Assembly (NCBI GenBank): GCA_024685135.1
Contig: JAIKWA010000130.1
Span: 1-64,000, forward strand
DNA length: 64,000 bases
Reading direction: 5' to 3'
Source of the DNA: Saccharofermentans sp.
GTDB taxonomy: Bacteria > Bacillota > Clostridia > Saccharofermentanales > Saccharofermentanaceae
Shown here: in pieces, positions 619 through 50,864 of the stretch
How the letters are laid out: each line of letters begins with the position of its first letter
Numbering within the stretch: the first letter of the stretch is position 1
The notes under the pieces: model-generated
Seen by the model: the letters and a program-made list of their open reading frames with translations, nothing else
The model's database searches: none
What the model was told of the DNA's origin: nothing
Made by a program: the position numbers and the translations under genes

Positions 619-1110
619 ATGAAGAATCTTTTGAATTACCTTATAGTCTTTCTTATTTCCATGGTGCCTATCGTAGAGCTCAGGGGAGCTGTGCCGATCG
701 GCGGATCCATGGGGCTCAATACATATATCTGTCTTGCAGTCTGCGTAGTCGGTAATATGGTACCAGTACCCTTTATCTACTTCTTTGCAAGGAAGTTCCT
801 CATGTGGGGCAAGGATCAGAAGTTTATAGGTAAGTTCTGCCAGTGGTGTATCGAGAAGGGTGAGAAGGGCGGAAGAAAGCTCACATCCAAAGCAGGCAGA
901 GGCGTATTCGTAGCTCTCCTCTTATTTGTAGGTATCCCGCTCCCCGGTACAGGTGCATGGACAGGTACTCTCGCAGCATCCTTCCTGGACTTCGGTTTTA
1001 AGAAGAGCGTAACGGCAGTACTACTGGGAGTATTACTCGCAGGCATAATAATGACCGTAATTACTGTATTGGTTTCAATGGGATATACGCAGTTGGGAGC
1101 TCTTTTGTAA
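619..1110 (+). CDS. Small multidrug export-like membrane protein (COG2426 type)
   Basis: 163 aa, hydrophobic; LRGAVPIGGSMGLN and GVFVALLLFVGIPLPGTGAWTGTLAAS are typical of this family. Confidence 0.8.
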   Translation: MKNLLNYLIVFLISMVPIVELRGAVPIGGSMGLNTYICLAVCVVGNMVPVPFIYFFARKFLMWGKDQKFIGKFCQWCIEKGEKGGRKLTSKAGRGVFVALLLFVGIPLPGTGAWTGTLAASFLDFGFKKSVTAVLLGVLLAGIIMTVITVLVSMGYTQLGALL

Positions 1111-1218: not shown

Positions 1219-1247
1219 TTGTATATTTCCAGGCAGGCAAGTATTAT
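1219..1247 (+). promoter_or_regulatory. Candidate promoter for ncRNA
   Basis: TTGTAT(1219-1224)-N17-TATTAT(1242-1247); predicted start ~1254 coincides with the 5' strand of the closing helix. Confidence 0.45.
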
Positions 1248-1253
1248 TAAGAT

Positions 1254-1858
1254 AGCTCCAGGGAATACGGAAGCAATAGCAACCGCAACCCGGGAAGACC
1301 GCCCTAAGCAATGGTCGAGGTGGCGCAGGGAAGAACCACAGTGTAGAAGCTGATGGCGAAGCCGAAGAAACGAAGCCGGAGAATATAATCGAAGGTGGCA
1401 ACGAAGCTTAAGATCAGAATGCCACGGGAAGACGAGCTGGCAGCTCACGGTGCTACGGCATACAAGCTGCAGGTTGTAACAATTAGTTGATTCGGTTATC
1501 GGATCGCGAGCCGGTGAGATGTCACCGCCGACAGAGATGAGCCGTAGCCGTAACTTGATTGTACACCGGTTCGTGCAAACCGAGTAGCCGATACCAAGCT
1601 ACCGAAGTTACTATCTGACTCGTGATGAGAAGAGAGTAACTACCTGAATCGAATAGCAGTAACGTTCGGCGAAGGGAGACATGAGTTGCACGGTGTGATT
1701 GATAGTTACAGCAAGTCAGTTAGTTGTAACGATATCACATAGAGCTCGGGTTAGGACGTAATACAAAGGGTCGATGACGGACGGAAGCAAAAATTGAATT
1801 TTGGTTCGCTGGAGCAAATTTAAGAATCCCGTTGATTCAGGTCAACGGGATTTTTTTT
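1254..1858 (+). ncRNA. Large structured noncoding RNA candidate (~600 nt)
   Basis: No credible ORF; GCTCCAG(1255-1261)/CTGGAGC(1809-1815) closes the ends; TTCGGT-TATCGG(1491-1502) pairs with CCGATA(1588-1593) and ACCGAA(1601-1606); GTTACT/AGTAAC(1607/1635); GTGTGAT/ATCACAT(1693/1734) enclosing GTTACA/TGTAAC(1705/1725); intrinsic terminator at the end. Confidence 0.75.
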
Positions 1859-1894: not shown

Positions 1895-2446
1895 TCACTT
1901 ATCTTTTTTGATCTGTGCGATGTAGGGGAGATTCCTTCCGATGTCATCCCTGTCCAAGCCGTAGCCGACCAGCCACTGATCGTTGATCTCAAAGCCTGTG
2001 TACTTGACCGGGATCGTCATGAGGATCCTGTCTGGGTTTACGAGAAGTGAGCAAAGCGTAACATCCTTAGGTCTCTTTGCTTCGAGGTTCTGGATTATGT
2101 ATGCGGTGGTAAGGCCTGTCCTTATGACGTCTTCAACCACGAGGACATGCTTGTCCGTTATATCTATGTCTATGTCCTTGATTATCTTGACTATGCCGGT
2201 AAGGGAAGTGGTATCGGGGATATTGGTAAAGCCGATCATGTCAACCTTGATGGGGAGGTCTATGGCTCTTGTAAGATCTGAAAGGAAATAAAGAGCTCCC
2301 TTGATAACTCCGATTACCACAAGGTCCTTTCCCTCGAAGTCTCGGGTGATCTGCTCGCCTAGTTCCTTTACCCTCTGATCTATCTGCTCCTTGCTGTATA
2401 TGACTTTGCTTGCACCCAGAGCCTGGGGTAAGTTTCCTTTGTCCAT
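1895..2446 (-). CDS. hpt: Hypoxanthine phosphoribosyltransferase
   Basis: VIGVIKGALYFLSDL, VLVVEDVIRTGLT, VKYTGFEINDQWLVGYGLD motifs. Confidence 0.93.
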   Translation of the reverse strand: MDKGNLPQALGASKVIYSKEQIDQRVKELGEQITRDFEGKDLVVIGVIKGALYFLSDLTRAIDLPIKVDMIGFTNIPDTTSLTGIVKIIKDIDIDITDKHVLVVEDVIRTGLTTAYIIQNLEAKRPKDVTLCSLLVNPDRILMTIPVKYTGFEINDQWLVGYGLDRDDIGRNLPYIAQIKKDK

Positions 2447-2455
2447 AACTCCTCC

Positions 2456-3412
2456 TTAAGCGTTATCCGGGGGCGGGAGATGTCCTAATCTTCCTATGAG
2501 CTCCTGGAAATCCTTCTTATATACTATGCGGATATTCGTGCCGGGATAAAGCTCTCTTACGAGCCTCATCTTCTTGTTTTTCTTGGTTACATACTTCTGA
2601 TCCATCGTAGTAAGCTCGAGATAGAGATTAAACCTCGGAAGATAGAAATCAGGTGAGATAGCCATAGTTACATTGCCTTCCGAATCCCATTTGACAGGGA
2701 AGGTCTTGGGCTCGTAAAGCCACTCTATGCCGTACATATCGAGTATTCCGGCAAATTCCTTCTCGGTCTCGTTCTTGAAGACCGCAGTCTTTGTCTGATG
2801 GTCGAAGGTCTTGCCCTGCGCACTCTCCTGAGTGAGATGGTCCTTTATGTCGTGCTTTCTTACGATCTCCATTATGCCGTCAACGCATTCGTCCACGCTT
2901 AAGCGGTCCGTGTTGAGGATAAGGTCGTACAGGGTAGGATCTGTTACATCCTTTGCGAAAAGGGTCTGAACGAACCTCTTGTGCTTGCGGTCGGATCTCG
3001 ATATTACTTCAGCGGCTTCCTCGGGGGAGATGCGGTATCTTCTGGAGATTACCCTCTCTCTTGAAGCAGCGGATGCCGTTACTCTTATATGGACCGCCTC
3101 AGGGTGCGAGCTGAGCATTACGCATCCGCCCATACCGAGCATTACAAGGCTCTGCTCGTCTGAATTGGCAGCAAGGGATCTGATGCGCTCTACTAAGATA
3201 TCCGCATATGTCCTGTTGCTTCCGGGAAGATTTGAAGTGAAGAACTTAGCGCTCTCGTTAAGTCTGTCTAAAGCTCCGGGAGTTATCTCTCCGAAGAAAT
3301 TCTCTAAGGCATACTGCCTCGATATGACAGTGGTCCCCAGGCGCTGGGCAAGACTTGAAGCGATCTCGTCGCCGAGGCTTCCGTTCTGCCTTGAGATGGT
3401 GATTATCGCCAT
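2456..3412 (-). CDS. Cytidylate kinase-like protein with C-terminal PD-(D/E)XK nuclease-like domain
   Basis: N-term MAIITISRQNGSLGDEIASSLAQRLG resembles Cytidylate_kin2; C-term SPDFYLPRFNLYLELTTMDQKY resembles the PDFYLP..YxExK nuclease core. Confidence 0.7.
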   Translation of the reverse strand: MAIITISRQNGSLGDEIASSLAQRLGTTVISRQYALENFFGEITPGALDRLNESAKFFTSNLPGSNRTYADILVERIRSLAANSDEQSLVMLGMGGCVMLSSHPEAVHIRVTASAASRERVISRRYRISPEEAAEVISRSDRKHKRFVQTLFAKDVTDPTLYDLILNTDRLSVDECVDGIMEIVRKHDIKDHLTQESAQGKTFDHQTKTAVFKNETEKEFAGILDMYGIEWLYEPKTFPVKWDSEGNVTMAISPDFYLPRFNLYLELTTMDQKYVTKKNKKMRLVRELYPGTNIRIVYKKDFQELIGRLGHLPPPDNA

Positions 3413-19468: not shown

Positions 19469-19544
19469 GGAAGCTTAGCTCAGCTGGGAGAGCATCTGCC
19501 TTACAAGCAGAGGGTCACAGGTTCGAGCCCTGTAGTTTCCACCA
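19469..19544 (+). tRNA. tRNA-Val (TAC)
   Basis: GGAAGCT/AGTTTCC acceptor, TTCGAGC T-loop, anticodon loop CTTACAA, encoded CCA. Confidence 0.95.
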
Positions 19545-19548
19545 AGAC

Positions 19549-19626
19549 GGCGCAGTAGTTCAGCCTGGTTAGAATGCCAGCCTGTCACGCTGGAGGTCGA
19601 GGGTTCGAGCCCCTTCTGCGTCGCCA
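19549..19626 (+). tRNA. tRNA-Asp (GTC)
   Basis: GGCGCAG/CTGCGTC acceptor, anticodon loop CTGTCAC, TTCGAGC, encoded GCCA. Confidence 0.95.
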
Positions 19627-19627
19627 G

Positions 19628-19663
19628 CAAGACCGGAACCATCCGGTTTCGGTCTTGTTTTTT
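19628..19663 (+). terminator. Intrinsic terminator between tRNA-Asp and tRNA-Phe
   Basis: CAAGACCGGAACC-ATCC-GGTTTCGGTCTTG (13 bp, one G-T) then TTTTTT. Confidence 0.85.
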
Positions 19664-19739
19664 GCCCAGATAGCTCAGTTGGTAGAGCAGGGGACTGAAA
19701 ATCCCCGTGTCACTGGTTCGATTCCGGTTCTGGGCACCA
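19664..19739 (+). tRNA. tRNA-Phe (GAA)
   Basis: GCCCAGA/TCTGGGC acceptor, anticodon loop CTGAAAA, TTCGATT, encoded ACCA. Confidence 0.95.
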
Positions 19740-50788: not shown

Positions 50789-50864
50789 TGGTCGAGGTGA
50801 CAGGATTCGAACCTGCGACCCCATGCTCCCAAAGCACGTACGCTACCAACTGCGCTACACCTCG
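50789..50864 (-). tRNA. tRNA-Pro (TGG)
   Basis: Minus strand CGAGGTG...TTTGGGA anticodon loop...GGTTCGAATCC...CACCTCGACCA. Confidence 0.95.

Follow-up and report, generated by a model that had tools for sequence, protein, structure and literature searches.

Few large structured RNA families are known in bacteria, and ROOL, GOLLD, OLE and the raiA motif RNA, ModT, each proved unusual. Phages and prophages carry the ROOL and GOLLD genes, often close to tRNA islands, and these RNAs, like OLE, form homo-oligomers (PMC12286853). ModT is one of the most abundant RNAs of its host (PMC11706538). The RNA described here comes from a 64,000-nt stretch of Saccharofermentans sp. DNA, termed the window, and would represent a separate family outside the current Rfam models. 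Its carriers number over a hundred rumen and gut species of Clostridia, mainly from one order, and include the named strains YAD3003, KHP2 and AB4001. It was previously uncatalogued, and searches of the open-access literature returned no earlier description of it. That the window RNA belongs to a real, new family of structured RNAs is very probable.

A first-pass annotation of the locus had left the choice between a ROOL/GOLLD-type RNA and a new class, and had proposed a cmscan with the Rfam models for ROOL, GOLLD and OLE. The window RNA has no match at gathering score, and at E ≤ 10 it returns only a few sub-threshold rows for unrelated families. Furthermore, about 30 divergent homologue loci gave no family match at E ≤ 1 to 5. 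These results favor the new class. They leave OLE membership unsupported, and GOLLD membership is unsupported because no GOLLD row appeared for the window RNA at E ≤ 10. ROOL membership is unsupported because neither the RNA nor its homologues match RF03087 and because the RNA is chromosomal, lying between the export protein and hpt genes; RF03087 also had no match in 14 genomes of the order, in a search run without a positive control. A phage or plasmid origin was rejected. Viral contigs contained 75 matches to the 5ʹ end, which are taken as chance because none of the 75 has a 3ʹ partner, and BLAST against phages and plasmids gave no match. The ROOL/GOLLD reading is thus unsupported, the RNA being chromosomal, mostly at one syntenic site by hpt, and free of phage, plasmid or viral matches.

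The locus and its boundaries

The RNA body spans 561 nt (1255-1815) between the export gene and hpt, and its ends, GCTCCAG and CTGGAGC, pair perfectly. Judged from its sequence, a large structured RNA has a free-standing gene here, which reaches from 1255 to about 1858 and is present as a single copy in its own genome. The fold of the window RNA is more stable than those of 20/20 shuffles (z = -4.3). The landmarks of the locus are as follows.

619..1110, + strand: gene for a small multidrug export protein (PF06695; Pfam E = 1.6e-41), the upstream neighbor
1219..1224, + strand: putative -35 element TTGTAT, read from the sequence
1242..1247, + strand: putative -10 element TATTAT, 17 nt spacer from the -35 element
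1255..1266, + strand: 5ʹ strand of the closing stem P1, GCUCCAG-G-GAAU, with every pair intact in 62/62 genus members
1803..1815, + strand: 3ʹ strand of P1, GGUUC-G-CUGGAGC, whose end is 244-622 nt away from where the 5ʹ strand begins (107 members)
1822..1855, + strand: intrinsic terminator, a 15-bp stem and U tract
1895..2446, - strand: hpt, a phosphoribosyltransferase gene (PF00156; E = 6.8e-19), convergent with the RNA

The promoter first proposed for the RNA, TTGTAT-N17-TATTAT, lies where it had been placed and is conserved across members. A generic promoter scan of the window did not list it, and its support comes from this conservation rather than from the scan. The best-scoring -35 box begins with TTG in 106/106 members, with spacers of 16-18 nt, and agrees with TTGACA at a mean of 4.49/6 positions, versus 2.92 in shuffled upstream regions. 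From the -10 box down to the first G of the stem, the distance is 7 or 8 nt in 106/106 members, a statistic partly selected by the search, as the pattern that retrieved some of these members contains TANNAT, whereas those found by BLAST or by covariance model were not so selected. Transcription probably starts at or adjoining 1255, where the closing stem begins. At the other end, the terminator that had been called was located at 1822-1855, and a terminator is present in 80/105 testable members. Elsewhere in the window, the tRNA genes (three in a row and a single one, at 19469-19736 and 50792-50864) are ordinary.

Closing stem, core and interior

P1 joins both ends of the RNA and consists of 7 bp, a G-G mismatch and a further 4-5 bp. 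Its 7-bp part, 1255-1261 with 1809-1815, had been predicted from the single sequence and is borne out by the homologues, with 7/7 pairs kept in 62/62 genus members. Across the family, GYUCCARGGAAU pairs with GGUUCGYUGGRRY, with the promoter 7-8 nt upstream, and compensatory changes occur at pair 7 (G-C to A-U) and pair 2 (C-G to U-A). Several genus genomes thought to be devoid of the RNA carry P1 with U for C at position 2, and this variant is often compensated (GUUCCAG/CUGGAAC); P1 is thus supported by compensated variants. The stem is nearly the same in every member found, even where interiors have diverged beyond recognition, an invariance that was partly selected by the search pattern. In the sister genus, P1 conservation is not a search artefact, because all 15 of the fetched loci (15/15) carry P1, which had not been used in finding them.

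Within the closing stem, RNAalifold applied to 29 genus members gave 93 pairs, 32 of them with compensatory changes, and most of the 93 are kept in 95-100% of sequences among 62 members. The predicted elements are listed below.

1301..1304, + strand: 5ʹ strand of P3, within ACCGCCC, pairing with 1768-1771 (RNAalifold; 95-98% paired, 62 members)
1355..1363, + strand: small hairpin GGC-GAA-GCC, nearly invariant, 97-100% paired
1431..1475, + strand: core hairpin B (1440-1445/1465-1470 and 1450-1454/1457-1461), the basis of covariance model R1
1433..1437, + strand: 5ʹ strand of P4, CGAGC, pairing with 1744-1748, 98-100% paired
1473..1480, + strand: 5ʹ strand of P5, pairing with 1726-1733, 97-100% paired
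1487..1490, + strand: 5ʹ strand of P6, pairing with 1716-1719, 100% paired, with UA/UG/AU/GC variants at 1487/1719
1491..1546, + strand: P7 arm (1491-1500/1539-1546, 1504-1508/1529-1535 and 1510-1517/1522-1528), 82-100% paired
1547..1554, + strand: 5ʹ strand of P8, pairing with 1705-1712, 93-100% paired
1562..1590, + strand: 5ʹ strands of P9-P12, with partners 1691-1697, 1680-1684, 1675-1676 and 1667-1670, 95-100% paired (62 members)
1667..1748, + strand: 3ʹ strands of P4-P6 and P8-P12 (RNAalifold and 62-member pairing)
1768..1771, + strand: 3ʹ strand of P3, within the conserved AAAGGG

Support is good for hairpin B and for the 1510-1528 arm. When hairpin B was aligned across genera, 9/11 pairs had changed on both sides and 94.7% of cells were paired; its covariation score was 0.572, versus 0.225 when shuffled and at most 0.149 when slid. 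The P7 arm shows many double changes, and P4 reads CGAGC/GCUCG in the genus and GCGAAU/AUUCGC in sister genera, with its pairing retained. A tree-aware covariation test (a home-made null simulation, distinct from R-scape) passed one pair when run on one set with no prior structure and 6-7 when run on two sets and restricted to the 93 structure pairs. The significant pairs all fall in hairpin B, in the 1510-1528 arm (1514/1525 in the P7 arm) and at one long-range pair; the P8 pair 1548/1711 was significant under 1/2 nulls. As only 6-7/93 pairs pass, it is retained pairing, and not covariation, that supports several of the long-range helices, and their arrangement is plausible but not proven. 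A conserved core of P3, P4 and hairpin B, together with interiors of lineage-dependent size, is evident on sequence grounds. The motif CYGAGUAR, at 1581-1590 in the window and at L102, L100, L230 and L261, recurs, sometimes twice, in otherwise divergent members, and is possibly a common loop motif.

The internal helices first drawn from the window sequence were compared with random formable 6-bp helices, which among 62 homologues are kept in 0.68 of cells on average, with a 95th percentile of 0.94. About half of those helices are not conserved. The claimed 1512-1517/1522-1527 holds for its inner part, 1513-1517/1522-1526 (pairs kept at 0.95-1.0 in 62 homologues), without the outermost pair, and 1567-1571/1578-1582 is kept at 0.98, but it is almost invariant and competes with the long-range pairing of 1562-1568 with 1691-1697, for which the value is 0.99. 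The two segments of the proposed long helix failed: 1491-1496/1601-1606 scores 0.29, the conserved partner of its 5ʹ strand being 1541-1546, and 1497-1502/1588-1593 scores 0.66. The nested helices 1693-1699/1734-1740 (0.83) and 1705-1710/1725-1730 (0.87) fall below the 95th percentile of random helices, and for the claimed 1607-1612/1635-1640, in a stretch whose variability precludes alignment, the score is 0.42.

Distribution and genomic setting

The homologue search proposed at the outset yielded 107 distinct members of 244-622 nt, in which the closing stem and core hairpin covary. P1 is common to compact (244-310 nt) and long members, and hairpin B to most of them; among the long, or "ornate", versions is the window RNA, whereas relatives have the compact versions. 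BLASTN found homologues in 32/59 genomes, nearly all of the same genus. The exact core 20-mer GGTTCGTGCAAACCGAGTAG (within 1562-1590) is present in 59 genome records; every one is Clostridia-type, most are from rumen or gut and many are labeled Saccharofermentans, with no viral contig among them. Following a BLAST match in another family, confined to the first 34 bases, revealed two tandem RNAs that share both ends, have their own promoters and are unrelated in their interiors. Two tandem copies with the same ends but different interiors were observed in one complete genome (L090:1-3501), and one further contig (L096:818-1513) holds two copies, the second cut by the contig end.

A pattern joining the -10 box to the 5ʹ strand of P1 matches 81/190 genomes of the order, while the reversed control matches almost none, and nearly all inspected matches have the 3ʹ partner GGTTCGYTGGAGC 244-605 nt downstream. 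Model R1, built on hairpin B, has matches in 114/190 genomes of the order at E ≤ 0.05, most of the genomes searched being MAGs and the covariance-model E-values being rough. These include all 23 genomes (23/23) of a sister genus that was absent from training and missed by the 5ʹ pattern. The window itself matches R1 at 42.1 bits (E = 1.6e-8), its sequence having been in the training set. Outside the order, only two members were found among 392 genomes drawn from the class. Within the genus, eight genomes (G006, G022, G033, G119, G124, G125, G129 and G144) match neither the core model nor the 3ʹ-end pattern, which suggests that the RNA is dispensable there or too diverged.

The gene hpt lies convergently downstream of the RNA in about 69/99 loci, which span several families and one further order. 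An hpt-type neighbor is convergent even at loci with unalignable interiors (L092, L093, L199, L200 and L209), and this synteny points to a single gene, orthologous among members and passed on mainly by vertical descent, with a fast-evolving interior. The convergent orientation is also evidence against a cis-acting leader. Additionally, the export protein gene is upstream of the RNA in 31 members, and other members adjoin unrelated genes, such as thioesterase-like or oxidoreductase-like ones. Neither comFC nor raiA was seen among the neighbors across loci, singletons being judged by eye. At L209, in another order, the gene beyond hpt also matches the window gene at 2456-3412; at L207, a purC-like gene occupies the position of hpt, and at L200, a nucleoside-hydrolase-like gene is upstream of the RNA. 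A purine theme among the neighbors is possible and may be coincidence.

Alternative readings and proposed role

The recurrence of convergent hpt, with purC at another locus, would fit an RNA that uses antisense or convergent transcription to regulate the neighboring hpt or purine genes. However, the RNA ends at its own terminator before hpt, some members stand beside unrelated genes, and the structure is far bigger than antisense requires, which makes such regulation quite improbable. A dual-function RNA encoding a small peptide is hardly credible. Short ORFs do exist, the longest per member having a median of 53 aa versus 45 aa in shuffles, but this difference is small, the overall maximum is below that of the shuffles (99 versus 114 aa), and the longest ORF in the window element is 31 aa, in agreement with the initial view that it holds no credible ORF. 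A coding gene was rejected on the same lengths. The strong promoter, the terminator and the size range would also suit a housekeeping RNA (RNase P, tmRNA, 6S or SRP) that has degenerated or diverged, or a mobile intron, a reading that is largely refuted and barely tenable: RNase P and tmRNA are found above cut-off elsewhere in 14/14 genomes and 6S, by weak matches, elsewhere in 11/14 at E ≤ 0.001, the element has no match to Rfam bacterial intron, tmRNA or SRP models, and it is a single copy at a mostly syntenic site. The first-pass annotation had seen no RNase P, tmRNA or 6S landmarks, and replacement of any of these three RNAs was rejected because their genes are found elsewhere. The three high-quality genus genomes among the 14 in which 6S was not found at E ≤ 0.001 (G005, G007 and G032) all bear a GCTCCAA-type closing stem.

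Two further readings draw on the large RNAs. An RNA-only multimer, a cage or dimer like those of ROOL, whose nanocages are homo-octameric, and of GOLLD and OLE, would have P1 close each monomer while peripheral arms contact other copies; the size, which reaches 622 nt, the junctions of several helices and the closure of one end on the other all resemble the homo-oligomer-forming RNAs. Contacts between copies should, however, constrain the arms, yet it is the interior that varies most (244-622 nt) and P1 that hardly varies, and the RNA is chromosomal rather than phage-borne and has no ROOL match. We consider a multimer unlikely. A divergent member of the raiA motif, that is, a sigma-A-driven, abundant, trans-acting RNA of Clostridia, would explain the shared architecture: ModT is intergenic in Bacillota, with a conserved SigA promoter, its own terminator and a conserved structure, and at 215-260 nt is near the compact members in size (PMC11706538). 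No match to RF03072 was found in the window RNA (E ≤ 10) or the scanned homologue loci, though, and the usual neighbor is hpt and not comFC or raiA, so that this relationship is very improbable.

The most likely reading is a housekeeping-type, trans-acting structural RNA whose closing stem would dock a conserved partner. Family identity and a trans-acting structural function, taken jointly, are likely; the particular mechanism in which P1 docks the partner and the remainder forms a scaffold has a little less than an even chance of being right. By analogy with ModT, transcription from the sigma-A-type promoter would be strong and constitutive, and the RNA would act in trans. Its near invariance suggests that P1 may dock a conserved protein or other partner, and the body would be a folded scaffold that tolerates rapid change outside P1. 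P1 is the best guess for the partner contact because it is kept where the interior is unrecognisable.

More tentatively, the family could serve its whole order as a housekeeping RNA with a new type of function, as a ribozyme or within a ribonucleoprotein, of which the compact and "ornate" forms would be versions of the same machine. The strictly conserved handle would then be the closing stem and a small core alone, with the body free to range from about 245 to more than 600 nt. One RNA at such different sizes allows a direct test of core versus ornament.

In Y RNAs, which are bound by Ro60/Rsr, a conserved closing stem is the protein-docking site and the body is variable. The window family shares this idea of a conserved docking stem with a variable body. 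The Ro-family TROVE domain, however, is absent above cut-off from 190/190 genomes of the order searched, which makes Ro very unlikely as the partner, and a Ro/Y-RNA partner was rejected on this ground.

Among the large RNAs, ROOL (RF03087) is likewise large (about 600 nt), elaborate and found in rumen Firmicutes, whereas the window RNA is chromosomal, outside phage genes and tRNA islands, and belongs to a family of highly variable interior length. GOLLD is also large and ornate but is associated with phages and frequently exceeds 800 nt (PMC12286853). OLE RNA has in common its size of about 600 nt, its structured nature and its occurrence in Gram-positive anaerobes. With ModT (RF03072), the family shares a stand-alone sigma-A-type promoter and terminator, presence in Clostridia and, probably, action in trans; unlike ModT, its hallmark is the nearly invariant GCUCCAG/CUGGAGC closing stem.
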